Part shown: in pieces, positions 15,769 to 60,518 of the stretch
Numbering within the stretch: position 1 is the stretch's first letter
Layout of the letters: each line of letters begins with the position of its first letter
Origin: Asparagopsis taxiformis
Lineage: Eukaryota; Rhodophyta; Florideophyceae; Bonnemaisoniales; Bonnemaisoniaceae
Assembly (NCBI GenBank): GCA_030407315.1
Contig: JALQPE010002243.1
Coordinates: 35,107 to 99,106 of the forward strand
Length of the DNA: 64,000 bases
Reading direction: 5' to 3'
The notes under the pieces: model-generated
Told to the model about the DNA's origin: nothing
Seen by the model: the letters and a program-made list of their open reading frames with translations, nothing else
The model's database searches: none
Translations under genes and position numbers: made by a program

Positions 15769-18700
15769 TTAGCGACGATAATGGCTAGAAGGCCGAGGCC
15801 GATGAGAGGCAGACGGTGCCGTAGGGGCAGGAGCGCGTACATTCGTCGAAGGACGAGGATGGCGGGGTGCAACCCTTGTGAAGGTAGGATTACGACGCAA
15901 ACCGCGTTGCGGAACTGCACTAGAACCCCGACGACGGGCAGGCACAGGGCCATGCGAAGACGCAACCGCAGAGGCGGATAACCCAACTGCTGGGATGGAC
16001 GCGGGAGGCGGAGAAACATCTGGCGACTCAGGCGACCCTAACCGGGCATCAAGACGCGCAAGTAAAGGATTACTAGCATCCGCAGCACCCACGGGGGAAT
16101 GAAGACGAGTACGCACGTTGCGTTCGGGAAGACCCTCATCGGGAGACCTAGCGCGACGACGCGAGTAACCAGGCTGAACGGCCTCCTCGCCACCCTCTTC
16201 GGGAATAACTGCTTGCTGCAGTAGACGCCTAGCGTCCTCCAACTCACCTTCTAATTCCCCAACCCGGGTTCGCAATTCTGCTGCCTCCAGGCGTGCGGCC
16301 TCAACCTCCCTATCCGCTGTGCGGCGACGCTCTCGGGCGATGTTACGCTGTTCGCGTCCTTGCTTATAGCGAGCAGCTAACGTAATGCACGACAATGCGA
16401 GTCCATCCAACGCGGATCTTACGATGTAACGCCCATTGGCAGAGGCAAAAATGGAAGCCACCGTACCATCCCCGAGATCATCGGCCAACCGCCGCACATG
16501 CGGAATCGATAGCAATTCGCGACTCGACAATTCCCCACGTAGGATATCAACAGCAGGAGGCTGACGCGTGACTACATCATCACCGTTCACGGATGGCTCA
16601 GAGCCTTGGTCGGATGTCAGAAGCGCCTCCATGGCGGGACCCACTTGGGATGAAGGGGCAGCTGTAGGCTGAGGGGTTGGCGCGGTAGGCGCGACGGTCA
16701 TCGGGACCTGACTTTCGTACAAGTCATCAGCACCACTGGGTGGTAAGGAAGCAACAGGAGCGAAGCTCCGTCCTGCGTAAGGCGAACGCCCAGCTGGGCC
16801 TCCCGCCTCGGCGGCCGTCCACCACGGACGCGGCACAAATGCCTCGCCAACAGGCTGATATTTGTAAGAGTCGGGGTGACCGTCGGAATACCTGTCAGGC
16901 TCCACGCCGTAATACCCATCTTCGGTGAACTCACCATCTCTGCGATAAGGCGGCAGCTCTGCGACTGTACCATCTCGATGGTTTAACACGTTAATACGTA
17001 ACGCCCTCACCGGCAAGTCAACAGTCCTGTAGATAACCACCTTCTCCGGTGCCACTCCCGTGATGTTGGTACTGACCAATTCCTGCGGATAATCATCACC
17101 CCCAAGGGCCACCTTCAGCAACCGACGCACTACCGAACCAGGTAACTCCCGACTATAGGGGACCACGTCCGACACCGGAACCTTCGGGATATCGTACCAA
17201 GTACTGCTCACCCTATTGAGGAGTTCCTCCGCCATCACCGGCACAAAGCCCCGCGTCTCGGCGGTACGAGCCAACTCGATCCCTATAAGGATATCCCTCT
17301 CCAACTCGAGGTACGATCGGAACCTGTCCATTCGCCATTCGGGCGCGTCGCGAAGAGCGGAATTGTGGAAATACACCAGCGACGGAGGGTCGGCAACGGG
17401 CAAACACATCGGTGGAGATGACTTGCCTTCCCAAGTGGGATCATCCCATAGCGGGTCCAAAGCTTCCCTAGCTACCTTCATGGGTCTAGTGACCGGCTCA
17501 GCAGAGCTACCATGACGGTGCGCGAACACGCGATAATCATTCGCCGTCACCTGACGTCCCATCCTTCGGGAAGTAACCCTAGCGTGCAAACGCATATGAT
17601 GCTCGTAGCTACCCGTATCGGGACGTGGAGGGTACGCAAACCAGCGTGACCGAACCATCGGTAGATCCGCTACGGAGCCTTGGTACGATCCTTCCTGGAA
17701 CAAGCGACGATTCATACGTTCGACGTACAGCGCATCTCCGGGATGGAGCAGGAAAGTCCTGTCGCTGCATAGCGTATGGGGGACACGGAAGTGACGCATA
17801 GGGCGACTCGAGGGGAGACGGGCATACGCCGACCAACATTCGTTTTGAACCTGATGGTTTTGACCCCGGAGGGAGCTCATGAGAAGCATATCGCGACGTA
17901 ACTCGCTTCTCGGGCGATCCGTAAAGTCCCTACGAGGGAGTCGCGCAAACGGGTAGTGTTCCCAAGGAGCGGCGAGCTCACGCCTGAAAGGCAAGGCTTG
18001 CGAATCGAATACCACCAGTTCATCAGCATTGGCTGGGTAAAATTCTCCCATGGAGCGCCAATTGGCAGTCGGCTTAGGTGCCCGAGGGGGAGTGTCGTGT
18101 GACGGAACAGCTGGTGCTGGAGCAGACGCAACCGCGTAAGGGTCAACCAAGGCGGTGCCCGACGGTCTTACGCCTACAGAGGCATCGGCGGCAGCCGCAC
18201 CAGACCCACTTCGGGTAACTCTGCCAGTAGAGGCATATGGGTCTATGACCTTCTCGACAGGTTGAGCATTAGCCTTTTCGGCTGCAGCCTTCTCGGCTTC
18301 TGCTCGAGCAGCCTCGCGGCGCAATTCTTCTTCCCTACGCTTTCGAGCGTCCGCCAGTATCTGTTGGTTGCGGCGGCCATAGTCCTCATAGGGATTCGCT
18401 GAAGCGTCATGACCAGAAGAGGTACGAGCCGCCGGGGCGGAAGGACGAGAAGTAATCGGACGCGAACTTGGCGAAGGCCTGACGTTCGGCTGCCTTGTTG
18501 GCCTGGGCGTAGCGCCTCCCTCGGCGACGACTTCTATCACCTCCTCGGTGTCGGCCGGCATGGCTCCCCTTGGGGACGGGCCGGCGGCCTTCGATGACTC
18601 ACCTTCGCGTGACGGCGGATTAACCGATGACGGTTTGACACTTGCCACTGGGGTGGAAGGCTTCGGGGAAGCAGGCGATTCAGCCGGAACAGAGTCGCGC

Positions 18701-19035
18701 TCTTGTGCGCTTGCCCTGGTAGGGGGGACCGTCTCTTCGGAACGCGCTTGCGCACTCACAACCTTGCCAGCAGGCGACGCTGGATCAGCGGTGCCTTTGA
18801 CGGCAGTCGAACGCGTTCGCGTTTGCGATTGAGCCGCGGTGGCTGACGGCACGCGTGGCGCTGAAGTCGACGAAGACTTAGCCGGTGTAGGCGGAACCCC
18901 GGTGCGGGAGGAGGAAGCCTGGTGGCGCGTCGTGGGACGGCGAACGCTGGAGCGTGTGGTAGGACGGTTGGGCGAACCCATATTGTCTCCTTCCTCTTCA
19001 GAGGATTCGAATTGAATCGGAGCACGAGGGGTCAT
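15769..19035 (-). CDS. Element A antisense ORF: large protein with conserved central domain and coiled coil
   Basis: 1088 codons from the ATG at 19035; the frame extends to 19140 without another ATG. The ATG at 18981 aligns best with the D protein (both reach RRPTTRHQAS within about 20 residues), so it may be the true start. The first 300 residues or so are rich in Pro, Ser, Ala and Arg. The central part (about 18060-16850) is strongly conserved with D: GEFYP, PFARLP, RPMRHFRVPHTL, DRTFLLHPGDALYVERM and SRWFAYPPRPDTG. A charged coiled coil lies at about 16390-16216, followed by a basic Ser/Pro tail. I recognise no known family. Antisense ORFs in this position are known from plant Tat-lineage elements, but homology to those is not claimed. 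The frame is unbroken although pol is not. Confidence 0.82.
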   Translation of the reverse strand: MTPRAPIQFESSEEEGDNMGSPNRPTTRSSVRRPTTRHQASSSRTGVPPTPAKSSSTSAPRVPSATAAQSQTRTRSTAVKGTADPASPAGKVVSAQARSEETVPPTRASAQERDSVPAESPASPKPSTPVASVKPSSVNPPSREGESSKAAGPSPRGAMPADTEEVIEVVAEGGATPRPTRQPNVRPSPSSRPITSRPSAPAARTSSGHDASANPYEDYGRRNQQILADARKRREEELRREAARAEAEKAAAEKANAQPVEKVIDPYASTGRVTRSGSGAAAADASVGVRPSGTALVDPYAVASAPAPAVPSHDTPPRAPKPTANWRSMGEFYPANADELVVFDSQALPFRRELAAPWEHYPFARLPRRDFTDRPRSELRRDMLLMSSLRGQNHQVQNECWSAYARLPSSRPMRHFRVPHTLCSDRTFLLHPGDALYVERMNRRLFQEGSYQGSVADLPMVRSRWFAYPPRPDTGSYEHHMRLHARVTSRRMGRQVTANDYRVFAHRHGSSAEPVTRPMKVAREALDPLWDDPTWEGKSSPPMCLPVADPPSLVYFHNSALRDAPEWRMDRFRSYLELERDILIGIELARTAETRGFVPVMAEELLNRVSSTWYDIPKVPVSDVVPYSRELPGSVVRRLLKVALGGDDYPQELVSTNITGVAPEKVVIYRTVDLPVRALRINVLNHRDGTVAELPPYRRDGEFTEDGYYGVEPDRYSDGHPDSYKYQPVGEAFVPRPWWTAAEAGGPAGRSPYAGRSFAPVASLPPSGADDLYESQVPMTVAPTAPTPQPTAAPSSQVGPAMEALLTSDQGSEPSVNGDDVVTRQPPAVDILRGELSSRELLSIPHVRRLADDLGDGTVASIFASANGRYIVRSALDGLALSCITLAARYKQGREQRNIARERRRTADREVEAARLEAAELRTRVGELEGELEDARRLLQQAVIPEEGGEEAVQPGYSRRRARSPDEGLPERNVRTRLHSPVGAADASNPLLARLDARLGSPESPDVSPPPASIPAVGLSASAVASSHGPVPARRRGSSAVPQRGLRRNPTFTRVAPRHPRPSTNVRAPAPTAPSASHRPRPSSHYRR

Positions 19036-19535: not shown

Positions 19536-20218
19536 TGTCGTACCGCCTGGCGGTCCTCGCTGATCGAGCCGTGTCGCTTCCCTATTGGGTACCCACTTAC
19601 GGGATGTGCCAATCAGAAGGCACCAGCCAACTGGCGTGTTTCCTATACTTAGGACCAGCTATGGCTGACAAATAACCCCACCCGGGCCTATCGGCCCCGG
19701 CCAAGACCCCACAAGGGGCAAATTTTAACTTAGGCTGATCAGCCATACATTACAATGTAAGCCTATTGGCAATGACCTCGCGGGTAGGCGAGCGCCAGTA
19801 ATTGGGTTCTGATTGGTCACTAACTGGATATTTATTCCTAACCACTAACCCTAGCTTACAGTAGACTTAGTATAAAACGGCCACTGGAATAGCCAGTAGG
19901 CACGGTTTCTAGAGTAACGTAAACTCAAGTGGAATTACGACCCACAGGAACAGTGTTCGCATACCTATTGTTCAACCCCTCTCCGGGAAAACCTTAGGGT
20001 TAGCCAACAGCTCGACGGATTACGTCATCTTGCTCCATTAATACGCATCTCGCGTGAGCGCTATAATCGCACAACCCCCTCCGGGTAGCGATCCCTTCTC
20101 TCTCACGAGACTACCCGCCGGGTACCTATAAGGTTCATCTGCTCTACCACTTCCTCTACCGAGGCTCGGGACACCTGTCGGGTGGTTTGCCGCTCTAGCG
20201 GATTTTCTACCTGCTACA
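19536..20218 (+). repeat. Element A 3' LTR
   Basis: 683 bp, same sequence as 7762-8444, followed by the TSD ATCGT. Confidence 0.95.
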
Positions 20219-25429: not shown

Positions 25430-25434
25430 GCTGG
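25430..25434 (+). repeat. Target-site duplication of element C, left copy
   Basis: GCTGG before the C 5' LTR, repeated at 61488-61492. Confidence 0.9.
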
Positions 25435-26221
25435 TGTGGTGCAATTTATGCCGCTAACGCGAACGCGGGTTGAAGCGATATCGACGAGTTGAGTCCGCGT
25501 GCATCCGCGCTGAGTTAGCTAGTAAGCGAGCGTACGCGTGGCGAACCGATTACGTGTCACGGTGCACCTGCGCGAACGCGTGCGATTGCGAACCCGGCGC
25601 CACGTGTAGCGATTTCTACGAATTTCCCTTTATTTCCCCTTTTTGGGTTTTTTATGACGAAAGTCTTTTTCCCAAATATTTCCCTTTTGCGAGCGAGCGG
25701 CCGCCGGCCGGCCACGGTAGGACAGCCTGTCCTTTAGTAGTTAGCTATTAATGGTCGTTCAGCTTCGCACCTTACCAATAAACAGCCAGCATCTTCGCAG
25801 CTACGAGTTAAGCGTTTAGCGAATCGCGAGGACCGATTGCGTTGAAACGTTGCGTGCGGGTTGCTCACGATCGCTGACGGTCGCGTGCGCGCTGCGCATC
25901 AACCGATCGTCGAACCGCGTCGCACCGCGATAGCGCGCGTTGCGTCGCACGCCACTAGGCCAGGGATTTACGACCCCTGTGTGGATCGCGTTGTGCTCGA
26001 GTTTACTCGGTGATCTCACCCTGAGATCACGGCTTGCGCCGGCCCGCGAATCCCGTGTTGCGATCGTTCCCTACGCGTTCCGCCGTTGTACCACCCGTTC
26101 GCCAGCGCGACCGAGCGACGCGCGAACGCAAGTTCAACCAGCGCGTTACGGTTCTTCCTCGCCCTGACACGGCTGCAATTCTAGAACTCCCTTAGCGATC
26201 GCCATCCCAGCTGGTCCTACA
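25435..26221 (+). repeat. Element C 5' LTR
   Basis: 787 bp, starting TGTGGTGCAATT and ending GGTCCTACA. It is near-identical to 60702-61487. No clear TATA box is seen. Confidence 0.93.
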
Positions 26222-26223
26222 AC

Positions 26224-26241
26224 TGGTCTCTCGACCTAGAA
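26224..26241 (+). promoter_or_regulatory. Primer-binding site of element C
   Basis: The same 18-nt PBS, two bases after the LTR end. Confidence 0.85.
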
Positions 26242-31700: not shown

Positions 31701-33051
31701 ACGCGCCCGCTCGAAGACGTCGCTATCGATATCCTTGGGCCGCTGCCCGAGACTCCGCGCCAACGCCGCTTCGTACTCGTAATCGCAGACCGCTATAGCA
31801 AACTCTGCCGACTCATCGCGCTCGGACGCGTATCCGCGCTCGCTGTTGCGAAGGCATTTTGCCGAGATTGGGTTTTCGTCTACGGACCGCCGCGCACGCT
31901 ACTTTCGGACAATGGGCCGCAATTCCGCTCGAAGCTGTTTCAGGAGACTTGCGCGCTGATGGGTACGCGAAACATATTCACAACGACGTACCATCCGCAA
32001 TCGAACGGACAAGTCGAGCGCATGAACCGCACCATCCATCGTTGCGACGCTGCGTCATTATGTAGATGAAGAGCGCAGAGATTGGGACGAGCATCTAGAC
32101 GCGCTAGCGTACGCTTACAACCGCGCGATACACCGCTCGACGAATACGTCGCCGTTCGAACTTACGCTCACGCGCTACCCCGTATCGCTGGGAACGGAAC
32201 AAGTGGACACGATTCGCAGCACGCCGTTTCTCCGTATGGAATTTCTAGCGCGATTATCGGACGCCTACGCGCGCGCAGCAAACGCGCTGAAGAAGGCGCA
32301 AGCGCGGTATAAACAGGATTTCGACCGCGGCGTACGCGCAGTGAACAAGGAAATCAAGGTGGGTGACCAAGTATACTTGGATACCCGCGCGGGAGCGACG
32401 ACTCAAGCACAGTGAGACGAAGGAGCGCGTGCGTCGAAATTGGACTACCCCGTCTCCGGCCCTTTCCCTGTAATAGGCTGTCGCGGCCATACCTACGAAA
32501 TCGTAATAGATGGCGTGCCCGAGCTCGTTAGTTCCGACCGCATCCGTGTCGCACCGCGTATTGCGACGCCCGCGTCGACCCCGCTAGACGACGAGGAAGA
32601 TGCTACCGCAACGGAAGCCACTAACGACGCTACGCAGCGCAGCGAACGCGACCTCGAAGCTTCGCGCAAAGTTAGCCCAGAGTCTGGGTACGGAACGCGC
32701 GAATTTATGATTGAAAAACTCATGGCCGAAGGCATTGACGATGCTGGGGAAGCCGTTTTCCGAGTGCGCTGGAAAGGATATTCGCCGCGCGATGATACCT
32801 GGGAACCCGTGGGCTCACTACCCGCACCTATTGTCGCACGTTTTCGCAGGGACCTAAAGCGAACTGCTTCGAACGCCGCCGGACGCGACACCGAGCCCGG
32901 CCGCGCTACGTCACGCAACCGCCGGGGACCCCTGCCGAAGAGGCGCACTCCGGAAGCGACAAGCGTCACCAAACCGCGCCGGACGCCACCCAGTCGCTCA
33001 AGTTCGCGGCTAGCGGACAAGAGGACGCGCCACCGCCCGCCACGCGACTGA
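28749..33051 (+). pseudogene. pol: Element C pol: protease, RT, RNase H, integrase, chromodomain, with three lesions
   Basis: The protease has VLDTGAGPSL. RT has FCIDYRRLN, LDCNSGYWQIPV and YLDD. RNase H has DTDASQGQIGCALL and TEHNSLRW. The integrase has the HHCC region, D in VAIDILGPL, D in LLSDNGPQF and E in NGQVERMNR. The chromodomain lies at about 32690-32860 (FRVRWKGYSPRDDTWEP). Lesions are an in-frame TAG at 30546-30548 between RT and RNase H, a 1-nt shift near 32040 in the integrase, and an in-frame TGA at 32413-32415. The first ATG is 28815, well after the frame opens. The coding sequence is notably GC-rich. Confidence 0.88.
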
Positions 33052-34869: not shown

Positions 34870-34933
34870 TCAGGACGGAGGTGCGCGTGTGTCATCGTCT
34901 CGACGCGTGTGACAGCTTGACGAACTACCCGCC
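34870..34933 (-). pseudogene. Element C antisense ORF, last segment
   Basis: The final 20 codons or so (AGSSSSCHTRR...) and the stop at 34870-34872. They join in frame to 47021 when element D and one TSD copy are removed. Confidence 0.65.
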
Positions 34934-34938
34934 GTATT
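34934..34938 (+). repeat. Target-site duplication of element D, left copy
   Basis: GTATT, repeated at 47021-47025. Confidence 0.9.
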
Positions 34939-35597
34939 TGTAGTAGGTAGAAAATCCGCAAAGCGGCAAAACCACCCTACAGGTGTCCCGAGTTTCGGTA
35001 GCGTGGTAGAGCAAGCGAATCTTGCGTCAACCGCCAATGGTGAGTATACCACGAATGGTCTTCCGGTAATGCCGGGTGAAGGTTGGGGGTGCTCACGCAC
35101 GGAGTGCGTATTGATGGAGCAGAAAGACGTAACCCGTCGAGCTGTATAGCTAAAGCTAATTCGTCCTAGAAGGATAGAAAAGAGCGATGCAAACACTGTT
35201 CAGTGGAGTCGTAAATTCCACGTGAGTTTACGTTACCTCTAAAGGTTAAGCACTCTGGCTAATCCAGAGGCATTTTATACTAAACTAAGTTACTGTAAAC
35301 AGTTAGGGTAGGTAGACAGTTAGGAATAAATATCCTTATGTGCACCAATCAGATCCCTGATTATGGCGACTGCGGGAGCCCGCGAGATCACCGACTGTTA
35401 GTGTTACAGTGTAAAGTTAGCTGAGTCAGCTTAGTTAAAATTTGCCCCTTGTGGGGTCTTTAGTTGTCCCAATGGGTCCCTCTCCCTCACTGGTCTGAGG
35501 TACAGCGAGGCTGTTTCCATTGGTTATTCCCGAACCGGGGTCGTCCAATAGGATGTCGACACGACCCCACCAGGGCAGACCACTCCGTGGTATGACA
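34939..35597 (-). repeat. Element D 3' LTR
   Basis: 659 bp, TG...CA ends. It differs from the other LTR by two C/T changes near 35560. Confidence 0.93.
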
Positions 35598-36085: not shown

Positions 36086-39000
36086 ATGGCTGCACACGGT
36101 AACAGCCCACAAGGCAACATGCCTCCTCGTTCAACCCGGGCGTCTTCTCGCCGACCAACAACACGCCACCAGGCGTCGCGCGCGAATGCGACTCCGGCTA
36201 CGCCGTCAACAAACCCTTCGGCATCTGCCGCTGCAGCCCCTGCTTCTTCTGCGCAGCCGCCGGCTACCGGTTCTCAAGTCCCGCCCTCTTCAGGGAATGT
36301 TCAAGCACAGGCTCCGTCGCCGTCATCCACTCGCCGTTCCACGGAACCCTCGCCGAAGGGGACGCCTCTCAAGGCCAAGTCAAGTCATCCGGCTGCGCCG
36401 TCGAAGGCAATTGCTTCTGCCAGTGACCCTCGCCCGGAGGTAGAAGAAGTGGAAGTCCCACGGAACACTCCGCGTTCGCCGCCAATCGACAAGCAGGGTT
36501 CTCCCCGTTCGCCTCGCCAGACGCCGGAACCGGAAGAGATTGTTGTTGATGCCCCTGCTGCTTCGCAGCCTGTTCCGACCCCCGCGACTGCCGTCGCTCC
36601 TGCCACCACAGGTCGTACCATCGTTCCCCGACCCTCGGAGTATCCGGATCCATATGCGCGGAAGCCCGCTACGGCTGGGCCGGTCGCGTCCAGGAATCCT
36701 TACGAAGACTTGTACAGCCGTAATCGGCAATTTGTTCTTGATGCTCGTAATCGCCAAGCGACCGAAGAAGTTAACCGCGGGGCTGTGGCCAGCAATTCAA
36801 CGCTAGCGGCGTATGCTTATGGTGGAAGCGGGACGGCACAGCCGCAAGATACAAGCTTGGGTAGAGGTCCTCTTGTGGATCCATATCAATCTTCCGTTCC
36901 CGTGGGGAGTTCGGCGGCACCGACTTACTCTTCCCCAAAAAGGGTACCGGCTCCTTCCGCCGACTGGCGTCGCGAGGGCGAATTTTATCCTTCGAATGTT
37001 TCGGAACTCATGGTCTTTGACTCACACGAGTTGCCTTTTGCAAGGTATTTGCGAGCTCCTTGGGAGTATTATCCCTTCGCCCGTCTACCCCTCCGGGAGT
37101 TCGTGAACGAGAACCACACCGACTTGCGTCGAGATCTTCGTCTGATGGTAGGCGTCAAACGCCGTAATCCCCATGCGCTGCCAAACAGCTGGTCAGCTTA
37201 CGCTCAACTTCCTTCTTGTCGGCCGATGCGGCATTTTCGTGTTCCTCACACTTTGCAGTGTGACCGCACTTTTCTTCTTCACCCAGGCGATGCCTTGTAT
37301 GTTGAGCGGATGACCCGTCGGCTGTTCGAGCCTCATTCGAACCAGGGAAGTATTCCGGATTTACCTATCACTAGGTCAAGGTGGTTTGCGTATCCACCCC
37401 GCCCGGATACCGGAATGTTGGAATGTTATATGCGTGTACACGCTCGATATCTGACTCGGTCCACAAGCTTGCAAGTGTCGTCACTTGACTACCGAGTGTT
37501 CGGTTATCGCGCGAACCGCAACATCAATAACCGGACGGCGAACTTGGCTGTGCCGACAGCGGAGTTGAACGCGACACTTGAAGATTCCCGCTGGGAAGGC
37601 GAGAACTCGCCGCCCTTATGCTTGCCTATTGGGGATACACCAGCGATGCTGTACTTCCACAGTGTGGTCGAAGCCGATCCCCGTCCTTGGGTGAAGTCTC
37701 GGTTCCTGGACTACGTCCTTCTGGAGCGTGAACTCCTTATTGGGTTGGAGATGGCGCGTCTCGTGGAGACGAGGGGATTCATTCCGGTATTAACCAAGCA
37801 CTTGGCTGCGTCGGCCGCCACTACCTGGAAGGCTTTCCATGAGGTACCGTTATCACCGGTTGTACCGAGGACGCGTAGCGTGGATGCGAAGGTCATTGTC
37901 GACCTCCTCGAGGCTTCCTACAAGACCACCGAAGGTATCGAGGAGATTTCTTGTGCGATTGAAGGCGTGTCGCCGGAGAAGATCATTCCGTACTCGCATC
38001 CGAGTCTCCCGTTCAAGCCGGCTAAGCTGACAGCGTATTCTACCCGAGACGGGGTGGTGGTGGAGACGCCTCCCTTCCGTCGCGATGGCGAGTTCGCCGA
38101 TGACGGTTATTACGCGGAAGAGCCTGCAAGTTACTCCGACGGAGATTTGGAGGATTACTTATACAAGCCCGAACGGGAGATGCATGTACCACGCCCTGGG
38201 CGTTCTACTCCGGCTGGATATCGACACGCTGATCCCGGCTTCTCGCCTCACCCGACGGTGCCAGTCGCGCCCGCTCCTTACGAACCTGGGGTTCCACAAT
38301 CAAGTGTTCATCCGCCAGTCCCGCGGGGCTTGGCACACCCTACCCGTCAGGGCTCTTCGTCTCCTTCGGAAGCTCCGTTTCTGTCGCCCGATCGTCGATC
38401 GGGTCAGTCCGTGGATCGTGACGGCCAGGCCGGTCGTTCTACCGCTCCTGCGGATGTACTTGGGTCCCTTTTAACTTCAGCGGAGCTGTTCTCGGTTACG
38501 AAGGTGCGTGAATTGGCGGAGACTCTTGGTGATGGCCAACTTTCGTCGGTATTTCCTCCGCGGGTTAGCGGTTACCCCGTTCGTGGAGCGTTGAATACCT
38601 TGGCAATGACGTGTATCACGTTGGGTACCCGGTACAAGGCTAGTCGCGAGCGACGAGATGCTGCCGAAACGCGCTATCGTGCAGAACGTGCGGGTCGCCG
38701 CTTAGCGGAAGAGAAGAACTCTCGATGGGAGCAAGATGCAGCTGCGAGGCAGAAGGTGTTTGACGAACTGCAGACACGAGTCCAGGAATTGGAAGAGGAG
38801 TTGCGCTTGGCGCGGCGTCGTATACCGCATGAGCGAGGAAGGGATACACCTAGCGCCCTGGGAACCCCAGCCAGTCTTCAACCTCAAGGAGGGACTTCCG
38901 GACGTCGCCGGGATAGGTCACCCTCTGGTCGAGATGATGGTCGAAATGTTCGCGCTAGGCGCTCCATGCCAGTTGATGTTGATACGCCGCTGCTACAGCT

Positions 39001-39274
39001 TGTTGATACGCCTGACCCGCCCAGGGCGGATTCACCTTCGGTGTCCGACGATGTGGATATTCCATCTCCGATGGCACCGGTTCCCTCAGCTCCAGCTGCG
39101 TCTCGACATCGCCCTCCGGCTCGGTTGCCTACTTCCCATAGGGATTCTGGCCGTGTGCGTCCTCGTGACACTCGCCGGTCCACGGCTCAGCATCCGACCA
39201 ACCGGTCCTTGAGGCCATCCCCATCCTATCCTTCGCATCAGCGTCCTCGTCCTTCCGACAACTTCCGTCGTTAA
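36086..39274 (+). CDS. Element D antisense ORF: large protein with conserved central domain and coiled coil
   Basis: 1062 codons, intact; ATG 36119 is a possible alternative start. It has the same layout as the element A protein: a Pro/Ser/Ala-rich N-terminus with SRRPTTRHQAS, and a central domain at about 36960-38200 (REGEFYPSNVSEL, PFARLPLREF, RPMRHFRVPHTL, DRTFLLHPGDALYVERM, RSRWFAYPPRPDTG, DGEFADDGYY). A charged coiled coil follows at about 38630-38830 and then a Ser/Pro/Arg tail. The frame runs opposite to gag and pol of the same element. I do not recognise a known family. The coiled coil and low-complexity arms suggest a structural or nucleic-acid-associated protein (inference). Confidence 0.85.
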   Translation: MAAHGNSPQGNMPPRSTRASSRRPTTRHQASRANATPATPSTNPSASAAAAPASSAQPPATGSQVPPSSGNVQAQAPSPSSTRRSTEPSPKGTPLKAKSSHPAAPSKAIASASDPRPEVEEVEVPRNTPRSPPIDKQGSPRSPRQTPEPEEIVVDAPAASQPVPTPATAVAPATTGRTIVPRPSEYPDPYARKPATAGPVASRNPYEDLYSRNRQFVLDARNRQATEEVNRGAVASNSTLAAYAYGGSGTAQPQDTSLGRGPLVDPYQSSVPVGSSAAPTYSSPKRVPAPSADWRREGEFYPSNVSELMVFDSHELPFARYLRAPWEYYPFARLPLREFVNENHTDLRRDLRLMVGVKRRNPHALPNSWSAYAQLPSCRPMRHFRVPHTLQCDRTFLLHPGDALYVERMTRRLFEPHSNQGSIPDLPITRSRWFAYPPRPDTGMLECYMRVHARYLTRSTSLQVSSLDYRVFGYRANRNINNRTANLAVPTAELNATLEDSRWEGENSPPLCLPIGDTPAMLYFHSVVEADPRPWVKSRFLDYVLLERELLIGLEMARLVETRGFIPVLTKHLAASAATTWKAFHEVPLSPVVPRTRSVDAKVIVDLLEASYKTTEGIEEISCAIEGVSPEKIIPYSHPSLPFKPAKLTAYSTRDGVVVETPPFRRDGEFADDGYYAEEPASYSDGDLEDYLYKPEREMHVPRPGRSTPAGYRHADPGFSPHPTVPVAPAPYEPGVPQSSVHPPVPRGLAHPTRQGSSSPSEAPFLSPDRRSGQSVDRDGQAGRSTAPADVLGSLLTSAELFSVTKVRELAETLGDGQLSSVFPPRVSGYPVRGALNTLAMTCITLGTRYKASRERRDAAETRYRAERAGRRLAEEKNSRWEQDAAARQKVFDELQTRVQELEEELRLARRRIPHERGRDTPSALGTPASLQPQGGTSGRRRDRSPSGRDDGRNVRARRSMPVDVDTPLLQLVDTPDPPRADSPSVSDDVDIPSPMAPVPSAPAASRHRPPARLPTSHRDSGRVRPRDTRRSTAQHPTNRSLRPSPSYPSHQRPRPSDNFRR

Positions 39275-39606: not shown

Positions 39607-42600
39607 TTATCGGCGCTTCTTAGCCGTTCGTCTTTTAGACGTTTTCTTAGCCGCTTGGCGGTTCCGCTTACGGAAGTATCGGGAGATTTGTTCGTCAGGC
39701 ACGTTGTGCCGTTGCGTCCACGTGGGGTCACGGTATCCGTACCACCTTACGAGGAACCACTCCTCATTATCGTCGTCGACGACATGGTCGATCAAGTCGT
39801 CTATGGCGAATTCCTGTTCTTCAGGTGGTTCCAGGTTCTGGGAGATAGCTCCCTGTTCTGGTAGAACATCTTGGCTCGACGAGCGTCGTCTTCTTCCGGT
39901 GTTAGCCGTGTCACCCGCAGGGGTAAGCGGCTCAGCCGAAGTGGCTTCTTGGGATATTTCCATGCCGTGTGGTCGGCTTCTTCTGGTTTGTCGTCGAGAG
40001 CGACTATTCTTCTTCGGGCTTGTTCCGGTTGGTGCCGTCTGGGTTGATCGGCGTAGCCGGGAGAACGTCTTGTTGGCGTCTTGGGAAGCAGGTTCCTGCC
40101 TTGTGTCAAGAGTTTCATCTTCGGGGAGGTCAAGTTGAGTGGACATCGGCTGTGAAGCAGCATTATCCTGACGATGAATATCGGCCTGGGCCCCCTCCTC
40201 AAAACGGTTCGTCCGGACCGATACTCGGTGTATTGGTTACGGAATCGCCTTCAACCGCGGAGCGGGATGACAAAGGCTTGGTTACAGAGTGGCCTGGCTG
40301 CAATCCGGCTGGAAGCGTTTCGCGCGGCGGGCTTGATGTATCACGACGTAGTCGCTCTTCCGCCATACTCGGCATCCTGTTGGCGGTTTGATCGTCGGTT
40401 CCCACCGCAGGTACGGATGCTCCGTTAGAAGTTAACCGTGAGTGCGGTGTTTCCTGTTCAGGTTGTGGCGCATACGTCACGCGGTCGTGGCTAACTTGTT
40501 CGACAAGTCCATCCCGTTCTATGTGAACGGTTCGCCTACCGGCTTTCGCGACCTTAAAAGGTCCTTGCGCTAGTGGCGTCAACTTGTTTCGTTCCCATAC
40601 TTCGGGTTTGTCAAGGTAGACGTAGTCACCTTCCTGAAGGAGTCGCTTGGTCTTCCGGATTCTCCGGTCAAAGTCCGTTTATAACGAGCTTTCGTGGCGT
40701 GTAGCCTTTGACCGGCCTTCTCAATTGCTTGAGCAATCCGTTGCAGGAAGTCCTGTTTCAAGAAAGCGTCCGGTTTTTGCCGTGTTCTTGTCGAGTGATG
40801 AAGGGAATAAGGGGGTGGTGGTCTACTTAGGATAAGGTCAAAGGGTGTCGTCCCTGTCGTGCGATGCACGTGCGTATTGTACGCGTACGTCAACGCTGGT
40901 GCGTACACGTCCCAGTCATTCTGGTTTTCGTTTACGTAGTTGCGTAACATGTTCAACAACGTACGGTTATACCGTTCCACCTGACCGTTGGTCTGTGGGT
41001 GGTAGGTCGTTGTGAACAAGTTCTTTGTTCCAAGTTGCAGGCAAACAGCCTGGAAAAGTTTGGAAGCAAACTGAGGTCCGTTATCGGAGAGCAACGTCCT
41101 AGGGGGACCGTACTTGAAAACCCAGTGGGTGCAAAAGGCGACAGCCACATGGTAGGCAGTGATACTGCGTAATGGTACAACCTGTGTAAGCTTCGTGAAG
41201 CGACAGGTAATTACTAAAAGGTGAAGGTTACCCTTCTTTGTTTTAGGCAGAGGGCCTAGTAAGTCTATAGAGACTTCTTCCAGCGGTGCTGAAGCTGGGA
41301 ACAGTTTCAAGGTATTAGCGTGTCTACGCAACTTGAGTCGGTTCCTGGCGCAAGCCTGACAACGTTCAACCGTAGCGGTGATATCCGCGGCCATGGCCGG
41401 CCAGTAGTACGAGAGACGCATGGTCTCATACATACGGTTTTGTCCGGGGTGACCCGCGAGTACATCGTGATGACACATCTTCAACAGGCGGGGCCTGAGT
41501 GTTCTTGGTACAACCACTTGGTGGGAATTGTCAAGGGTGGATTTACGTCGCAAGACACCTTGTCATCTTCGAAGAAGACAGTGTCAGACTTCTGACTTGT
41601 CAATACTTGTTGACAAAAGTCATCAGAGCGTTGCTCCTCGATCCACTCGTTGAGTGTGATTGGTTCGGAACCTTCTGTCTGAGGATGTGTCGTCATGACA
41701 GCTTGGTTTTCCTCCATCAGGGGGGTGTCAGCGGGAGTTCGCCCGATGAGTACATCAAAGAACCACGGGTTCATCTCTTCGGTAACAGGTATTTCCTGGT
41801 GAAGGTCATACGCGAAGAGCGTGGGTATTTCGTCATCCACTGGATGGGGGTCTGCCCCTTCCGTTTCGACACGCGATAACGCGTCTGGTACCTGATGAAC
41901 CCTGCCAGGACGATAGACTATGGTGTAGTCAAACTCCGACAGACGGAGTCGCCAACGACACAGGCGCCCTGACGGGTCTGTGATATTCATCAACCAACGC
42001 AACGCGTTATGATCGGACCTCACCACGAACTTCGTTTGTTCAAGGTACGGCCTAAGGGTAGTAACTGCCCATACTACGGCGAGACACTCGCGCTCCGTCG
42101 GAGAATATCCCCGTTCAGGTTTGGTCAAGGTCCGCGACCAATATCCTACAGGACGATAGTCGTCGTCATCCTGCTGTTGCAACAGCGCACACCCTATCTG
42201 ATACGCAGAGGCGTCTGTATCTACGATGTAGGGTTTACCCACCCTGGGCAAAGCCAGTATCGGTGGTTGCACCAGAGATTCTTTAAGTTTATCGAACGCG
42301 TGGCGTTGTTCCGCCGTTGGAGGACTTGAACCGAAGCTCGGTAGTTTGTCTTTGGTCAACATCGCGTTGAGGGGGTGGGAGATATCCGCGTACCCTTTGA
42401 CGAAACGGCGGAAAACACCGCAGCTCCCCAGGAAGGAACGCATTTGCGTGGGGGTGGTTGGAAAAGTTGCTTTCGCGATAGCATCCGTCGCAGTTTGGGC
42501 GACCGCCAGCTTACCTGGCATAACAACATGTCCGAGGTAGTCTACCTTTGATTCGAAGAAGTGGCACTTGGCCAGCTTGAGGGTTACCCCTGCAGTCTTC

Positions 42601-44315
42601 AACAGTGTGAGTACCTGATCCACTTGGTGGAGGTGGTCTTCCTCACTACGTGAGAAGACGATGACGTCGTCGAGATAGATAAGACATGTTTGCCAGCGTA
42701 CGCTGCTTAGGATAATGTCAATCGCTCGTTGGAACGTGGCTGGTGCATTCTTCAGCCCGAAGGGCAGTCGTTTAAACCGATACGTTCCAAGATGTGACGT
42801 GAAAGCCGTCTTATCCCGATCCTCGGAGGCAACGGGTATTTGCCAATAGCCTGAGTTGCAATCAAGCGTGGTGAACACGCGTGCATCTCCTAAGGAGTCT
42901 ATGCAATCGTCCATACGGGGTAACGGATAAGCATCCGAGATGGTGATGTCGTTGAGACGTCGGTAGTCAACGCAGAAGCGTAATTTACCATCCTTCTTGG
43001 GTACCAGGACCACTGGGCTAGCCCACTCGGAGTTCGAGGGTTCGATGACTCCTTTCTCTAGCATGGAGATGATCTCCTTACTTGCTAGCTCCCTTCTCAA
43101 GGGTCCCATTCGGTATGGTTGTTGTCGACGTGGTCGGCTTCCTTCGATTATATCAATCCGATGCTCGGTTGCTTTAATGTCTCCAGGAGACCCGTCCCAC
43201 ATGGACTCATGTTGCGATAGCATCGCAATAATTTTCTCCTTCAACTGTGGTTGTTGAAGGTGTTCCAAGGATACATCCTCCCGCCATTGCGGATTCTCTT
43301 TCTCCTTGGTTCCCGTCATCGGGTTGGTTAGACTGATGATACGGTTTGAGCCGGAAAAGGATAACTCACTAGGGAGCTTTTGATCGGCTGGGCCGGGTGC
43401 TCGACGGGCAATACCGACAACCGTCCCCTTCGGGAGGTATCTTTCGGTCGAACCAAAATTGGTGAGAATGACAGTGAAGACTGTACGAGGAATGATTTCA
43501 GCAATGCCGTTCGGCATTGAGATCCGCTGTCGGTGGAATAGTTTTTCCTTGGCCTCAAGGAGGCTTAGTCCGCCCCCAGCACAGACAACCGATGCGGTTA
43601 ATTGACTCATGGGGGGAATTGTGATTTCTCTTGCTAGCCGGATCCGGTTTGACTGGTGGTCCAGATCAGTACCCTGCGAAGGGTTTGGTTCATGTACATA
43701 GCAAGAAGAAGAGTTGTTCAATTTACTCACGTTTTGCATCAGCAGGATGGCGATCGATCCACCATCGTGTACATCAATGCGCTGAGCGCGGCATCGAATT
43801 GCATCTACATGTGAGTTCATGATACTTGTTCCCAGGATAACTGGTACTGCCAGCTTAGGTGCTACAAAGAATTCTGCGTCCAGAACCTTACGTCCTAGCT
43901 GTATTAGCAGCTTGATTCTTCCTGTTATCCTGAGAGGATTACCATTGGCGTCTGCCAGTTGAGGAATGTTCCCGGTTTGCGCGGCATAGGTCTTCCATCC
44001 TTTGGGTAAGGTTGATTCTTGGACGACAGAAGGGCCTGAACCTGTGTCCATAACCATACGCATAGGCGTTAGAAGTGTCTCGGATATTCCGATGGAACCT
44101 AAAACCACGTAGTGGGCTGCCTTCAAAAGACATGCAGCCTTTGGCTGAGAGGGGAGGGGATAAGGGATATCCCCTGTTGGTGTCTGGGTAGTACGGTTCA
44201 ACCGCGTTGGTATCTCCGTTCCACCCTGTGGAGGTGTGGATGGTGAGATGTCCACCTTACAGCGAAGCTGTTCGACCTCCTGGCGGGAGCGCGACACCTC
44301 ACTCCCCCCGGTTAG
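39607..44315 (-). pseudogene. pol: Element D pol: protease, RT, RNase H, integrase, chromodomain, frameshifted
   Basis: The -1 frame relative to gag, open from the slippery site without any ATG nearby. Protease MVMDTGSG, RT YLDD and RNase H DTDASAYQIGCAL and SDHNALRW are in one frame to about 41481. The integrase HHCC region and DDE residues (VSIDLLGP, LLSDNGPQF, NGQVERYNR) are in the frame 41553-40579. The GPF module is in 40582-40199. The chromodomain (DDLIDHVVDDDNEEWFLVRW) is in 40146-39607. Apparent single-base shifts lie near 41560, 40680 and 40150-40200. Protein identity to element A is high throughout, so all domains are present but not in one frame. Confidence 0.88.
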
Positions 44316-44373: not shown

Positions 44374-46245
44374 CTACCGAAGAGACGAACCTATACTCCG
44401 TTGAAGTCCGGAAACCGGATTGGCTTGGTCAGCGACGGGGTCGTCCTCGGCAAACGCGACCATGCGTGGAAACGGTTTCTGCCGTTGGATAATCGTCTTT
44501 GCAGGGACCTGCTTCTTCTTGAACTTGTCAAATTGCCGTTGCTGTCGGCGCATGACTTGTTCCGGTTCTTGCTGGTATGCATAGTTTGCGAAAGCGAAAT
44601 ACATTCCTACGGAACGGGAGAGATACGGGCATGTGTACAGCACGTGACCGGGTTGCCGGCATCCGGAGCAACGCCAATTGACCGCACCCTTCGGGATCAT
44701 GGACTCGGCAAGATTCACATGATCTTCGGTGAGGGGTGGTACTTCCATCGGCGGTGCCTCCGCGTTCGGACCCACAGTCAGTGGTTGTAACGTCTGCGAC
44801 GTAGTTGCTTCTCTCCTCATTCCGAGGTCTTCTCTAGCCATGGTGGCTAGTAACGCTTTGCGTTTCCGTTCGGCGAGTTCCCTACTAGGGTACATCTTGG
44901 GCTTAGCCGTGTCGGCTGTGGTGGCTCTTAGGGAATCCCCGAGTCCTTTTGCCAGATTGCGCACAGCAAGGAAATCTTCGCCGTCTCGGCCAACGGTGAC
45001 CTTCACGGTGTCTTTTACCCCCGGGCGTAGCCCTTTGAGGTAGTAGTTTACCAAGTCTCTTTCAGAGAAAACATTAGCACACAACAGTGCGGCCTCTTGC
45101 AGTCTGTCGGCGTATTCTGCCTCATCTTCGTGAGGTTCTTGTTTAATACGCGTGACCGCGTCGTAGGCGTCAGCCAAAACTGTATCCGTTGCATAACGAG
45201 AAAGTAAAGCATGGACGGCCTGTGGCCACGTTATCTGCTGGGGCAGTTGATTTAGCAACTTCCTTTTCCGAGATTCGGACGCGATGAATCGTTGCGCATC
45301 TCCTTCAAGGAAATAACGTAGCAACTTTGTTGCTATTCCTTCTGATACTCCGCAGGAGTCACAAGCATCTTGGTACTCGGCGAGGAATCGAAGTATATCG
45401 ATGGGTTGCGTTCCATCGAACGGCGTCAAGGACGCATTGAAGTTCCGAATCTTTTCCGTTATCTTGTAGAGACTTCTACTCTTTCCGTTCGGAGCTTCTG
45501 TCGATGACGACTTGTCTTGTAACCGGTAATACCGGTAGGATACTACACGATCGAACGCGGGTTCGCGGGCTCTTAAAGGAGTTAAGCCTGGTTCCAAGGG
45601 TCCTTCTTCTGTTTCGAATGGATTCGAAGGTGTATCACCAAACTCAAAGACTGGGTCACCCATATTGGGATTTCGAATTGGTACCGGACGGGCGAGAGAC
45701 TCGCTGAGTAAGTCCACTCGATCTGATAAACATCTGGTGACGTCCACGACCTTGTCGAGCTTCTCGGCTTCCACAGCTACGCTTTTCTCGGCAGTGCCGT
45801 CTTGTTGGTTCCAAAGCCCTTGGTGCTGATGATCGCCGGAAGAAGAGCTAGCGTAGCTTCTCCTTTGTAGGTCAGTGACCTTCTTCTCCAGCCGGATAAC
45901 CCGTTGTAGAAAATCCACACGGATATACTTCCACGTTCCCGAAAAGACTTCTACTTCTTTCTCATCTACCACTTCGTGGCAAATGGCTTTCAGCTTGGGT
46001 GCAAGCAAATCAATCGTGTTATCCACGAGAGTTGAGACGAGATCGCCGTGTCGGTCATCGAGGGTGTCCTCAACAGCTTGGCTGATCTCATCACGCATCT
46101 CTTTCAATTTATCATTGAGAATCTTGTCTGCATACTCCTGCATAAGTCGGTAGACTCCTTCCTCAGTGACGAATTCTTGGTTTGAACCTCCCCCGATGGG
46201 GTCTGACTCGGAGTCAGAATGTTCCGGAGACTTGTCCGATGGCAT
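44374..46245 (-). CDS. gag: Element D Gag polyprotein
   Basis: ATG at 46245. Gag core motifs match A (VVSYRYYRLQDK, LLRYFLEGDAQRF, SERDLVNYYLKGLRP), and a CCHC knuckle, CSGCRQPGHVLYTC, is present. A 1-nt shift near the end produces a stop at 44374-44376. In the shifted frame the tail continues to DTSSEN and TAA, exactly as in A, so the last 25 residues or so are detached. That detached frame leads into the slippery site at 44321. Confidence 0.85.
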   Translation of the reverse strand: MPSDKSPEHSDSESDPIGGGSNQEFVTEEGVYRLMQEYADKILNDKLKEMRDEISQAVEDTLDDRHGDLVSTLVDNTIDLLAPKLKAICHEVVDEKEVEVFSGTWKYIRVDFLQRVIRLEKKVTDLQRRSYASSSSGDHQHQGLWNQQDGTAEKSVAVEAEKLDKVVDVTRCLSDRVDLLSESLARPVPIRNPNMGDPVFEFGDTPSNPFETEEGPLEPGLTPLRAREPAFDRVVSYRYYRLQDKSSSTEAPNGKSRSLYKITEKIRNFNASLTPFDGTQPIDILRFLAEYQDACDSCGVSEGIATKLLRYFLEGDAQRFIASESRKRKLLNQLPQQITWPQAVHALLSRYATDTVLADAYDAVTRIKQEPHEDEAEYADRLQEAALLCANVFSERDLVNYYLKGLRPGVKDTVKVTVGRDGEDFLAVRNLAKGLGDSLRATTADTAKPKMYPSRELAERKRKALLATMAREDLGMRREATTSQTLQPLTVGPNAEAPPMEVPPLTEDHVNLAESMIPKGAVNWRCSGCRQPGHVLYTCPYLSRSVGMYFAFANYAYQQEPEQVMRRQQRQFDKFKKKQVPAKTIIQRQKPFPRMVAFAEDDPVADQANPVSGLQRSIGSSLR

Positions 46246-46342
46246 CACTTCTCCTCTTGTTCAATGAGCTCACGTCTAACGACGAGTTTACTCTTCTTGA
46301 GTGGTTTCGGTGTGTCGCCGGTCGGCTGGGATGTCGGTAAGA

Positions 46343-46361: not shown

Positions 46362-47020
46362 TGTAGTAGGTAGAAAATCCGCAAAGCGGCAAAACCACCC
46401 TACAGGTGTCCCGAGTTTCGGTAGCGTGGTAGAGCAAGCGAATCTTGCGTCAACCGCCAATGGTGAGTATACCACGAATGGTCTTCCGGTAATGCCGGGT
46501 GAAGGTTGGGGGTGCTCACGCACGGAGTGCGTATTGATGGAGCAGAAAGACGTAACCCGTCGAGCTGTATAGCTAAAGCTAATTCGTCCTAGAAGGATAG
46601 AAAAGAGCGATGCAAACACTGTTCAGTGGAGTCGTAAATTCCACGTGAGTTTACGTTACCTCTAAAGGTTAAGCACTCTGGCTAATCCAGAGGCATTTTA
46701 TACTAAACTAAGTTACTGTAAACAGTTAGGGTAGGTAGACAGTTAGGAATAAATATCCTTATGTGCACCAATCAGATCCCTGATTATGGCGACTGCGGGA
46801 GCCCGCGAGATCACCGACTGTTAGTGTTACAGTGTAAAGTTAGCTGAGTCAGCTTAGTTAAAATTTGCCCCTTGTGGGGTCTTTAGTTGTCCCAATGGGT
46901 CCCTCTCCCTCACTGGTCTGAGGTACAGCGAGGCTGTTTCCATTGGTTATTCCCGAACCGGGGTCGTCCAATAGGATGTCGACACGACCCTATCAGGGCA
47001 GACCACTCCGTGGTATGACA
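46362..47020 (-). repeat. Element D 5' LTR
   Basis: 659 bp, with TATAAAA on the minus strand at 46702-46696. Confidence 0.93.
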
Positions 47021-47025
47021 GTATT
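47021..47025 (+). repeat. Target-site duplication of element D, right copy
   Basis: GTATT, matching 34934-34938. Confidence 0.9.
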
Positions 47026-47409
47026 GCGCGAACGAGCACGGCTCGAAGCCGTATCTGCCTGGTGACCGCGTCGCCGTTCGGGATTCAACACCCGAACGAC
47101 GCGCCCATCATGTACGCCAATCCGAAGTAGAGGAATACTTTTGCGACCCGTCGAAGCCGCAGCCGCGCGCGAACGCGTCATGGGCCGTGCGCCGCCGCGT
47201 CCTGAGCCAACGCTCCCCGCAGCGCCACGTACCGCTTCTGCGCGCAACTCGCTCACGGACTGCGTCTCGCCAGCTGACTCTTTCTCGCCCACGGACCCAG
47301 TCGGGGACCGCTGCAGGAAGCCAACGACATCGTTCAACGCCGAACCCAACCGGTGCGCGCGTTCGATAATGTCTTGAACCTTGAGCACGGTATCCCTTTC
47401 TCGCGCGCG
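47021..47409 (-). pseudogene. Element C antisense ORF, middle segment
   Basis: The frame runs RARERDTVLKVQDIIERAHRL and on through a Ser/Arg/Gly-rich stretch to RSRNT. There it is cut by element D and resumes at 34933. On the other side it joins in frame to 58151 when the 10.7-kb insertion is removed. It is the start of the basic C-terminal tail after the coiled coil. Confidence 0.65.
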
Positions 47410-58114: not shown

Positions 58115-58150
58115 TGGACGTCCGCGTCCATTTCCGAGAACACAGACGAT

Positions 58151-60518
58151 ATTCGTCGCACACCGTAGCGATACGAGCTGACGACCGCCCCTTTCTGCTT
58201 CCAGATTGGCTTCGACTTCGACGAGCGCACTCTGCGCCGTCTGCTGAGCAGTCACCGCAGCGTCACAGCGAGCTCGAAGATTCGCTAGCGCCGCCCGATC
58301 ACCCTCAGCCTCCTTCCTGTACGCCGCTGCACGACCTTGCAACTTCCCGATGTCTTCGTGCATACGCTCAATACGCGCAGCGTCTTCTTCGACCTTGCGT
58401 TTTAGCGCGGCTTCGCGCTCCTCCGATTCCGCCAACGTCTTCCGAGTCTCGCGCAGGACCGACACGGCTTCGTCACGTGCCTCAGACGCATCATCGCGCG
58501 CCTTGATTGCCTCGTCGAGCGCTCTGGTGGCCGCGCTAAGACGCCCCAAGGCCTCGTCCCGAGCTTGCGCGACCGACGTCACACGCGACAACGCTTCATC
58601 TCGGCCCTGCTTGGCCGAAGAAAGTTGAGTTTGTAGCCCGTCTGCCGCCGACGAACCAGCGACTACACCAGCGTCGTCACCAGCCACCGCCGTGGGCGCT
58701 TCTGCACCCTCGCCAACAACCGCCGAACCCGATGCCGCGCCGCTAGCCGTCGCCGCACTTGCACCCGCTTCGCCAGGCATGTTGGTGGCGCCTTGACCCT
58801 GAGTGGCTTTCTTCAGTTCTTGTAACTCGTTGTACACCTTCACGTACTCCGCCCGCAGCGCCGCGTCCAAATGCGCAACGTCGATAGGAGCCCGTGGTGC
58901 TTCGGAGAACAACGAGTAACGCCCATCGCGGAACCGCCGGCGCTCAACGGCCAACAACGCGGCCATCCCAAGGTACTGCGCATATTCCCGCGAATTCGTT
59001 GCGCGCATCACATGCAACTCGTTAGAAGACAACGCCGACAAGACAGCATCCACGGTAACGACGTCGCCCGCTTCTAGATGCGCGAACGCGCTACGTGAAG
59101 GGTTGCGCGGCGACTTCAATAGCAAGTGAAGGATCTCCGTATGCCTGTGAACTCCGAGCGCGCCATGCGCCCAATCCACGACGCCGCGTTCCGCGCTCCA
59201 CGGTAGCCACTGGCCACCCTCATTGAAGTCCACGCCGGGAGCCACGTCGAAGACAGGCGTCTCGTCCCATGGACACGCGCGATGCTCCGACAAGAGACTT
59301 TCTAAATGCGCGACTGAATAGGTGCCGTCACGAACGACCGCCGCAGCGCCGACGCTCTCGATACCGGCGATGAGCCGGTCGCTCAAGCGAACGAAACGAC
59401 GCTCGACGAACGCGAGATGAAGCCAGGCGCAGGCCACCATCACGACCCATTCGCTAAGCGCCACGGCCCAGAAGTAGGAACGCGTCTCGACCGGAACATC
59501 AAGACCAAGAAGGACAGATGGTGCATAATGGAAGACGCACGGTAGTGGAACGGACAGCGATTCGGGAGCGTCAGGCCAGTCGCGCGGGTCGTAGCGCGGA
59601 AAAAAGGAACTCACGCGATCTTCTGGGAACTCGCGAAATTCGACGTCGCGATGCGTAACGAAGTAACCGGTCGTGCGACGCAAGCGCAATTCACGACGCG
59701 CCTCGGAGCGCATCCCCGCGTCGAAAAACCAAGGCTCACTAACTTCTCCCTCCCGTCCAACATCATTCCAGGGGACGCCGCCGTTCAACAAGAAACCGGC
59801 ACTAGGCGCCGCCGCCCAGGGGTCAAGATGCGCGAACTCGTCGCGACGCATTGTGCGAAGACGCGCCAAGTGACGCACCAACCGCTCATCCCGCCGCGTC
59901 CTCCAGGAAGTAAGTGTCACAAGGAAGGTTCGAAGGTACAGCCAAGTCGCACCACGCCGCCTCGCGTCGCGCATCCCATACGGCTTGCGCGTTCTTGTGG
60001 CCAGGTAGCACCGCGTAGCGGTTGACATCGGCGATACGCGTCCATAGGAAACGCCGCGGAAAGTATTGGACGCGACTCAATTCGGACCAAGTTGGCATCG
60101 CGCGCGGCAGGAACCGGAACGCAGAAGGGTCGTCGTAACGCGCACGCGGAGCGGACGGGGGACGGCGCTGCGCGGCCGAAGGAAGCGACACGGAAGAAGG
60201 AGCAGGTACGGAACGAAGAGGCACGCCAACGTTGGCACGACTCCCAGCCGCGGGTGTAGCGGTTACGTCCACCGTCGCAACAACGCCCGATGACGCACCG
60301 ACATTATCCGCGTTATGCGCACTCGACGACGCGGCAACCGGCGCGCTGGTAGACGACGCTTGAGCCATTGACAGATAAAATGGGCTCTCGGGGCTCATAG
60401 GAGATGGCGAAGCGGGACGCGGAGTCGCCAATGGCGAACGTATCGGCGTTGCAGCTTCTTCGCCGGAAGGGACGCTGGCGCGCAGCCAGCTGGGGAGAGT
60501 ATCACCGTCGTGCGCCAT
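58151..60518 (-). pseudogene. Element C antisense ORF, first and largest segment
   Basis: Start at ATG 60518 (MAHDGDTLPSW); the frame extends to 60554 without another ATG. The N-terminus is Ala/Ser/Pro-rich. The central part corresponds to that of A and D but is diverged (FRFLPRAMPTWSEL, VPSNLPCDTYFLEDA, PWFFDAGMRSEARREL, LSVPLPCVFHYAPSVLLG). A long heptad-rich coiled coil runs about 58640-58200. A 1-nt shift occurs near 59890. With the segments at 47409-47021 and 34933-34870 the total is about 2820 nt, or about 940 codons. The minus-strand leader (60519-60660) is a strong pyrimidine tract. Confidence 0.72.

Follow-up and report, generated by a model that had tools for sequence, protein, structure and literature searches.

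The 64,000-nucleotide stretch of Asparagopsis taxiformis DNA analyzed here (the window) carries LTR retrotransposons, and for three of them (A, D and C) the first-pass annotation had reported a long ORF that runs antisense to gag-pol and is situated between pol and the 3′ LTR. Are these ORFs genes that selection maintains, and if so, what could their product do for the element?

A and D are recent Ty3/Gypsy elements bounded by LTRs and target site duplications (TSDs), with the domain order protease, reverse transcriptase (RT), RNase H and integrase. A lies on the forward strand, with identical 5′ and 3′ LTRs (7762..8444 and 19536..20218) and the TSD ATCGT; its gag (8522..10447, PF03732) is followed by an ORF with protease-RT-RNase H domain matches (10447..13035) and by the integrase (13235..15460). 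D lies on the reverse strand, with 99.7% identical 5′ (46362..47020) and 3′ (34939..35597) LTRs and the TSD GTATT; here gag occupies 44374..46248, protease-RT-RNase H 41481..44297 and the integrase core 40579..41553, and a separate ORF (39607..40146) carries the C-terminal end of the integrase with a chromodomain. The Chromo matches at the integrase C-terminus were above the curated cut-off in elements B (E 6.7e-7) and C (E 2.5e-7), and below it in D (E 3.4e-4) and, more weakly, in A (E 0.022). The RT domains of A and D are 89% identical, and those of C and A 69%. The internal region is bordered by a primer binding site and by a G-rich polypurine tract (identified visually), neither of which falls within the antisense ORF. 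In both elements pol and the integrase occupy ORFs that are out of frame with each other, and the D integrase is split over two ORFs; beyond the antisense ORF, therefore, damage to these copies is likely.

The antisense ORF of A runs on the reverse strand from an ATG at 19035 to a stop at 15769 (15769..19035, 1088 amino acids), and that of D on the forward strand (36086..39274, 1062 amino acids). Both are open and sit in the interval that separates the 3′ LTR from the integrase/chromodomain ORF, antisense to gag-pol, as had been annotated. When the pol-3′ LTR region of A was simulated 300 times with an order-1 Markov model, the longest stop-free run was 316 codons, and a chance ORF of 1088 amino acids was thereby excluded. 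The A protein comprises a Pro/Ser/Ala-rich N-terminus (residues 1 to about 322), a core (323-739), a linker, a helical region and predicted coiled coil (about 830-942) and an Arg-rich tail. Sequence comparison firmly supports the homology of the A and D proteins (BLASTP E 0.0, 40% identity, 668 bits; 44% identity across 1013 aligned codons), and the three central-domain motifs quoted in the annotation are present in both.

Selection acts on this protein. Between A and D the third codon positions differ most (0.46, 0.35 and 0.65 differences at first, second and third positions), and dN/dS was 0.27 by NG86 and 0.106 by maximum likelihood, far below the value near 1 that had been named as the outcome arguing against function. 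The dS is saturated, so that the ratio itself is rough; the rejection of w = 1 under the codon model (2ΔlnL 276.9) is not affected. The protein-level alignment holds 30 indel events, which are in frame by construction, and both ORFs remain open through them. Outside the ORF, identity between A and D was 49% in the leader, 48% in the spacer between the antisense ORF and pol, and 66% in the LTRs. The similarity is not the shadow of a conserved sense-strand feature, because each of the sense frames opposite the antisense ORFs contains 26-44 stops; together with the third-position pattern, this excludes that explanation, which the first-pass annotation had also raised.

Element C (forward strand; LTRs 25434..26226 and 60701..61492, 99.2% identical; TSD GCTGG at the element edges; chromodomain-bearing integrase end at 32440..33051) carries its antisense ORF on the reverse strand in pieces. 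Piece 1 (59892..60518), with the N-terminus and the start of the core, is 95.7% identical to the database relative P0006. Piece 2 (58163..59890), with the core and coiled coil, is in a different frame. Piece 3 (47017..47409, its lower end being approximate) is 60% identical to P0007, and its last bases reach the LTR of D; piece 4 (34870..34938), compared with P0007 by eye, is the C-terminal tail severed by D. The pieces are separated by the frame change, by a ~10.7-kb insertion and by element D itself, and database relatives match them, two reading through the site of the frameshift. By these alignments the pieces belong to a single ORF, about 940 codons long, that has been split: the annotated length stands (the pieces total about 937 codons), and the pieces number four rather than three. 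A codon-usage score separated the frames weakly. The coding frame scored best in A and D, but in C piece 2 it reached 0.061 versus 0.088 for one opposite-strand frame, and in piece 1 it was likewise not the best, hence the score was not relied on.

The C protein is probably homologous to that of A and D, so that the annotated homology, firm for A and D, extends to the third family at this lower strength. It is unlikely, in our estimate, that the C protein is unrelated and that antisense genes of like plan were gained twice. That reading draws on the lack of any significant match between C and A/D by hmmsearch, BLASTP or hhalign, and on single-sequence shuffle tests that were mostly not significant. 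The weak hhalign matches fall at collinear places, however, and in a custom profile-profile test, which followed the negative or borderline single-sequence tests, the observed score was reached by no more than 11 of 300 shuffles, whichever kind was used, in 8 of the 10 settings; the other two scored no better than shuffles. In a control run, one setting gave the test a z of 4.6, against -1.9 to 1.2 for 10 controls, the controls being single sequences and the test a three-sequence profile; by count, the integrase of A used as a control equalled the test in one setting of that run (3 of 100 shuffles).

The annotation had not recognized the protein, and indeed the A and D products gave no match in Pfam, PHROGs or PDB sequences. 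Protein searches with whole A or its core, each scoring ~8000 candidates, returned a single relative, P0001, which is of the D type (7 differences in 682 amino acids); an equivalent search with C (~8000 candidates scored) returned P0005, P0006 and P0007. Between C and P0005 the core blocks are 82-92% identical and the linker and coiled coil 40-55%. Scans of IMG/VR found no relatives. Among genome contigs, one scan gave no relative and another gave one RT relative, a related element on a Moorena MAG contig (L001, RT 64%). Since this contig, which may be incomplete, showed no antisense ORF longer than 133 amino acids in the 2 kb after the pol ORF, the antisense gene may not be general in this lineage. 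Predicted structures of the A/D core plus coiled coil and of the C core had mean pLDDT values of 35.7 and 31.5, respectively, the modelled C piece including some residues upstream of the true-frame start. Model confidence was high for the coiled coil alone, with block pLDDT values of 75-94 across the final ~52 residues. Because no domain or fold was recognized, any molecular activity is a guess.

Antisense additional ORFs are known from plant elements (aORF-3R; Grande gene23, RIRE2 and Retand ORF4), a class described in PMC7264820, according to which Grande encodes a nuclear protein from a gene with a promoter of its own. In PMC7264820 and PMC11963269 the role of these plant ORFs is presented as not established; some match Smc-type entries (PMC11963269, Table 1), which we take to reflect their coiled coil. 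The ORFs of A and D share the marks of this structural class, being long, antisense to gag-pol, placed between pol and the 3′ LTR and conserved between copies. The elements are also of similar size: LTR, internal region and pol-3′ LTR region measure 683, 11,091 and 4,075 nt in A and 659, 10,764 and 4,009 nt in D, and the mean values given for Retand clusters are 635, 10,364 and 4,616 nt (PMC11963269). The protein family and the lineage appear to differ. PF04195 (Transposase 28, TRP28) was not listed for A, D, two C pieces, P0001 or P0005-P0007 in Pfam-A searches at E up to 10, where the HMMER filters discard most matches above about 0.1; and, judged from the chromodomain matches, the present elements contrast with Retand, a non-chromovirus (PMC11963269). 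Thus, of the parallel that the first-pass annotation drew to antisense ORFs in plant Tat-lineage elements, position and general plan hold, whereas lineage and protein family do not. Outside plants, Boty of Botrytis cinerea, by its description in PMC7264820, also has an antisense ORF between pol and the 3′ LTR. The sense env-like ORFs of Ty3/Gypsy elements occupy the same position on the opposite strand; no strong transmembrane segment was found here (best 19-residue hydropathy 1.37 in A, 1.05 in D and 1.7-1.8 in P0005 and P0006), and strand and hydropathy exclude an env-like protein.

We consider it reasonably probable that the ORF is a conserved antisense accessory gene of chromodomain-bearing Ty3/Gypsy elements whose product is a trans-acting nuclear regulator of the element; its transcription, nuclear location and regulatory role are what we infer. 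Transcription of the ORF would most likely start at a dedicated antisense promoter, located in the 3′ LTR or in the ~490-500-nt leader, and give a product of ~940-1090 amino acids in which a Pro/Ser-rich N-terminus of low complexity is followed by a single conserved core, a coiled coil and an Arg-rich tail. The coiled coil could mediate self-association, and the tail would suit nuclear entry or nucleic-acid binding. In the nucleus the protein might act in trans on promoter activity, on protection from silencing or on handling of the pre-integration complex. An analogy is offered by HBZ/APH of deltaretroviruses, nuclear regulators with a bZIP coiled coil that are encoded on the antisense strand and expressed from the 3′ LTR (PMC10186651); it is an analogy only, HBZ being a 31-kDa bZIP protein and the present products having about 940-1090 amino acids and, in A, D and two C pieces, no bZIP match (Pfam-A, E up to 10).

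The coiled coil, Arg-rich composition and length would also fit an assembly or RNA-binding protein that works in the particle or in replication, as an extra structural component, a nucleic-acid chaperone or a factor for nuclear import of the pre-integration complex. We regard this as unlikely, as antisense coding implies a transcript separate from that of Gag-Pol, and neither A nor D has a gag-like Pfam match. Far less probable, and strongly disfavoured, is an incidental ORF on a functional antisense transcript acting as dsRNA or by transcriptional interference. Antisense RNAs regulate Ty1 (PMC12786077) and have been suggested for plant elements (PMC7264820), but here selection acts at the protein level in A and D, in C-type proteins the core has been preserved and the linker and coiled coil have drifted, and the flanks of the A and D ORFs have diverged. 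Recent capture of a transduced host gene, or of a nested foreign element, also seems very improbable: the ORF occupies the same position in A, in D and in the more distant C, and the pol-3′ LTR regions of A and D are nearly equal in length (4075 versus 4009 nt), even if ~8000 candidates per protein search and the short contigs of the relatives leave room for a host source. If C is homologous, the capture predates the split of the three families.

The arrangement is thus familiar from plant and fungal elements, and the A/D family, by sequence, seems distinct from plant TRP28. We tentatively propose, without giving it even odds, that in chromodomain-bearing Ty3/Gypsy elements outside Retand an ancient antisense regulatory gene, with no sequence relationship to TRP28, arose or persisted and converged on the same plan, with a Pro/Ser-rich region, core, coiled coil, basic tail and ~4-kb pol-3′ LTR region. 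If so, antisense nuclear accessory proteins would be a recurrent solution among LTR retroelements. A second, sequence-distinct family under clear protein-level selection in another Ty3/Gypsy lineage indicates that the antisense arrangement itself is valuable to the element, and the A/D family supplies a conserved core domain open to expression and testing.

Possible promoter and end signals of the antisense ORF are hints only. On the antisense strand of LTR plus leader, CCAAT occurs 6 times in A and 5 times in D (1.4 expected in each), counts that are not independent since the elements are related, and 0 times in C. In D only, a candidate TATA box (TATATAAGG) lies 25 nt before the ATG, so close that the true start may differ from the listed ATG. 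An ATTAAA motif is found 105 nt past the stop in A and 104 nt past it in D.

Two of the Ty3/Gypsy retrotransposons in the window, A (+ strand) and D (- strand), carry an antisense accessory ORF (aORF) that is open throughout, at 19035-15769 (- strand, 1088 aa) in A and 36086-39274 (+ strand, 1062 aa) in D. It starts 500 nt (A) or 488 nt (D) from the 3′ LTR and ends 308 nt or 332 nt, respectively, from the integrase ORF. When the A pol-3′ LTR region was simulated 300 times with a Markov model, the longest stop-free run was 316 codons or fewer. That the similarity of the two ORFs is only the shadow of a conserved sense-strand feature is countered by stops in every sense frame across them (26, 37 and 44 per frame in A; 26, 35 and 30 in D).

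The A and D proteins share 44% identity over 1013 aligned codons, with differences of 0.46, 0.35 and 0.65 at the first, second and third codon positions. The first-pass annotation had read this conservation as a sign of function, and a dN/dS near 1 is indeed ruled out for this pair: with dS saturated, NG86 gave a ratio of 0.27 (dN 0.58, dS 2.16), and a codon likelihood fit gave 0.106, with a value of 1 rejected (2ΔlnL 276.9). By region, 2ΔlnL was 51.1 for the N-terminus, 186.1 for the core, 17.2 for the linker plus coiled coil and 38.6 for the tail, but the regional ratios are unusable as numbers because synonymous change is saturated. Between A and D, conservation is higher in gag (59%), pol (71.5%) and integrase (82%), which makes the aORF the fastest-evolving gene among the four. 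Noncoding identity is 49% in the leader, 48% in the aORF-pol spacer and 66% in the LTRs.

The Pro/Ser-rich N-terminus, central domain and C-terminal coiled coil claimed earlier are all present: a Pro/Ser/Ala-rich N-terminus is followed by the core, a linker, the predicted coiled coil and an Arg-rich tail. AlphaFold confidence is confined to the coiled coil. Pfam, searched at E values up to 10, gave nothing for the A and D proteins; for the C piece and the database relatives it gave only matches that were weak, below cut-off and mostly of coiled-coil type (e.g., CENP-H, 0.014). PHROGs gave no match for A, D or P0005 (a relative of the C protein), nor did PDB sequences for A, P0005 or the A/D profile. 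The protein family is without match in the libraries searched here. The kind of gene is already known, and the plant precedent named earlier is borne out by the literature: PMC7264820 and PMC11963269 describe antisense aORFs in plant Retand elements, Boty and elsewhere.

The database relatives of element C (+ strand) show that it, too, formerly carried a gene of this kind. P0006 (ena, 432 aa) is 96% identical to piece 1 of the C aORF (59892-60518) and 98% to piece 2 (58163-59890); P0005 (jgi, 815 aa) is, like P0006, continuous across the C frame-change site; and P0007 (jgi, 480 aa) aligns with the pieces from the C-terminal end (47017-47409 and 34870-34938). From these relatives it follows that the C aORF was disrupted by a frameshift, a ~10.7-kb insertion and D. 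Identity between C and P0005 is 82-92% per 60-residue block in the core and 40-55% in the linker and coiled coil. The insertion (47410-58162) has 49-nt inverted terminal repeats (47410-47458 and 58102-58150, 88%); no long transposase-like ORF was seen in it, and a Pfam scan covering 56708-57568 gave no match. Further inverted repeats are nested inside it (50300-50990 and 55420-56109, 99.7%), and it also contains a tandem array around 48207-49568.

Homology of the aORF across three families, as first proposed, stands for A and D, but for C it is only probable. Standard tools detected none between C and A/D, and single-sequence shuffle tests were mostly non-significant (best, 38/1000), with P0005 borderline (14/1000 shuffles, 25/1000 block permutations). 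When the core profiles of A/D and C/P0005/P0006 were aligned to each other, no more than 11 of the 300 shuffles of each kind equalled the score in 8 of the 10 settings; two BLOSUM62 settings were non-significant (79 and 115 of 300; 295 and 295 of 300). Against 10 unrelated proteins, one setting gave z 4.6 (0/100) versus -1.9 to 1.2, and another z 2.45 (3/100) versus up to 1.8, with one control likewise at 3/100; here each control entered as a single sequence and the tested core as a three-sequence profile. Taken together, the C protein is probably homologous to that of A and D.

The most economical model is that an antisense promoter would drive aORF expression, and that the product would oligomerise, be nuclear and act in trans as an accessory protein. 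A like model is suggested for plant aORF-3Rs (PMC7264820, PMC11963269), and one is reported for deltaretroviral HBZ (PMC10186651). Promoter signals that may support antisense expression are thin: CCAAT is over-represented on the antisense strand of A and D but not of C, a candidate TATA box occurs in D only, and ATTAAA lies at +105/+104 (A/D).

The window is made up of nested Ty3/Gypsy elements. A (+ strand) has LTRs at 7762-8444 and 19536-20218 with 100% identity between them and TSD ATCGT; D (LTRs 34939-35597 and 46362-47020; - strand; 99.7%, TSD GTATT) sits inside C (LTRs 25434-26226 and 60701-61492; + strand; 99.2%, TSD GCTGG), and C, in turn, is inserted into pol of element B, the fourth in the window. 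RNase H of B ends abruptly at the C 5′ LTR and its integrase pieces lie beyond the C 3′ LTR (61895-63624). Element B comprises 20734-25457, with gag and RT cut by the C insertion, and this distal segment, with integrase and chromodomain; an aORF of B, if any, is expected mostly past the window end. Chromodomain matches occur at the integrase end in all four elements, above the curated cut-off in B and C and below it in A and D. The primer-binding site after the 5′ LTR is identical in A, C and D. Near the polypurine tract, both A (19495-19535) and D (35598-35640) have the inverted repeat TTGTCG-TCC-CGACAA.

A Moorena MAG contig (L001, 7951 bases) carries a Ty3/Gypsy gag-pol whose RT is 64% identical to that of A, with no antisense ORF >133 aa after pol; its presence in a cyanobacterial MAG is probably eukaryotic contamination. 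The window also has two probable host genes, both on the - strand: a MutL-type mismatch repair protein (3-1580), open for 526 codons without intron, and a 712-aa ORF (1995-4133) with a weak bZIP match.
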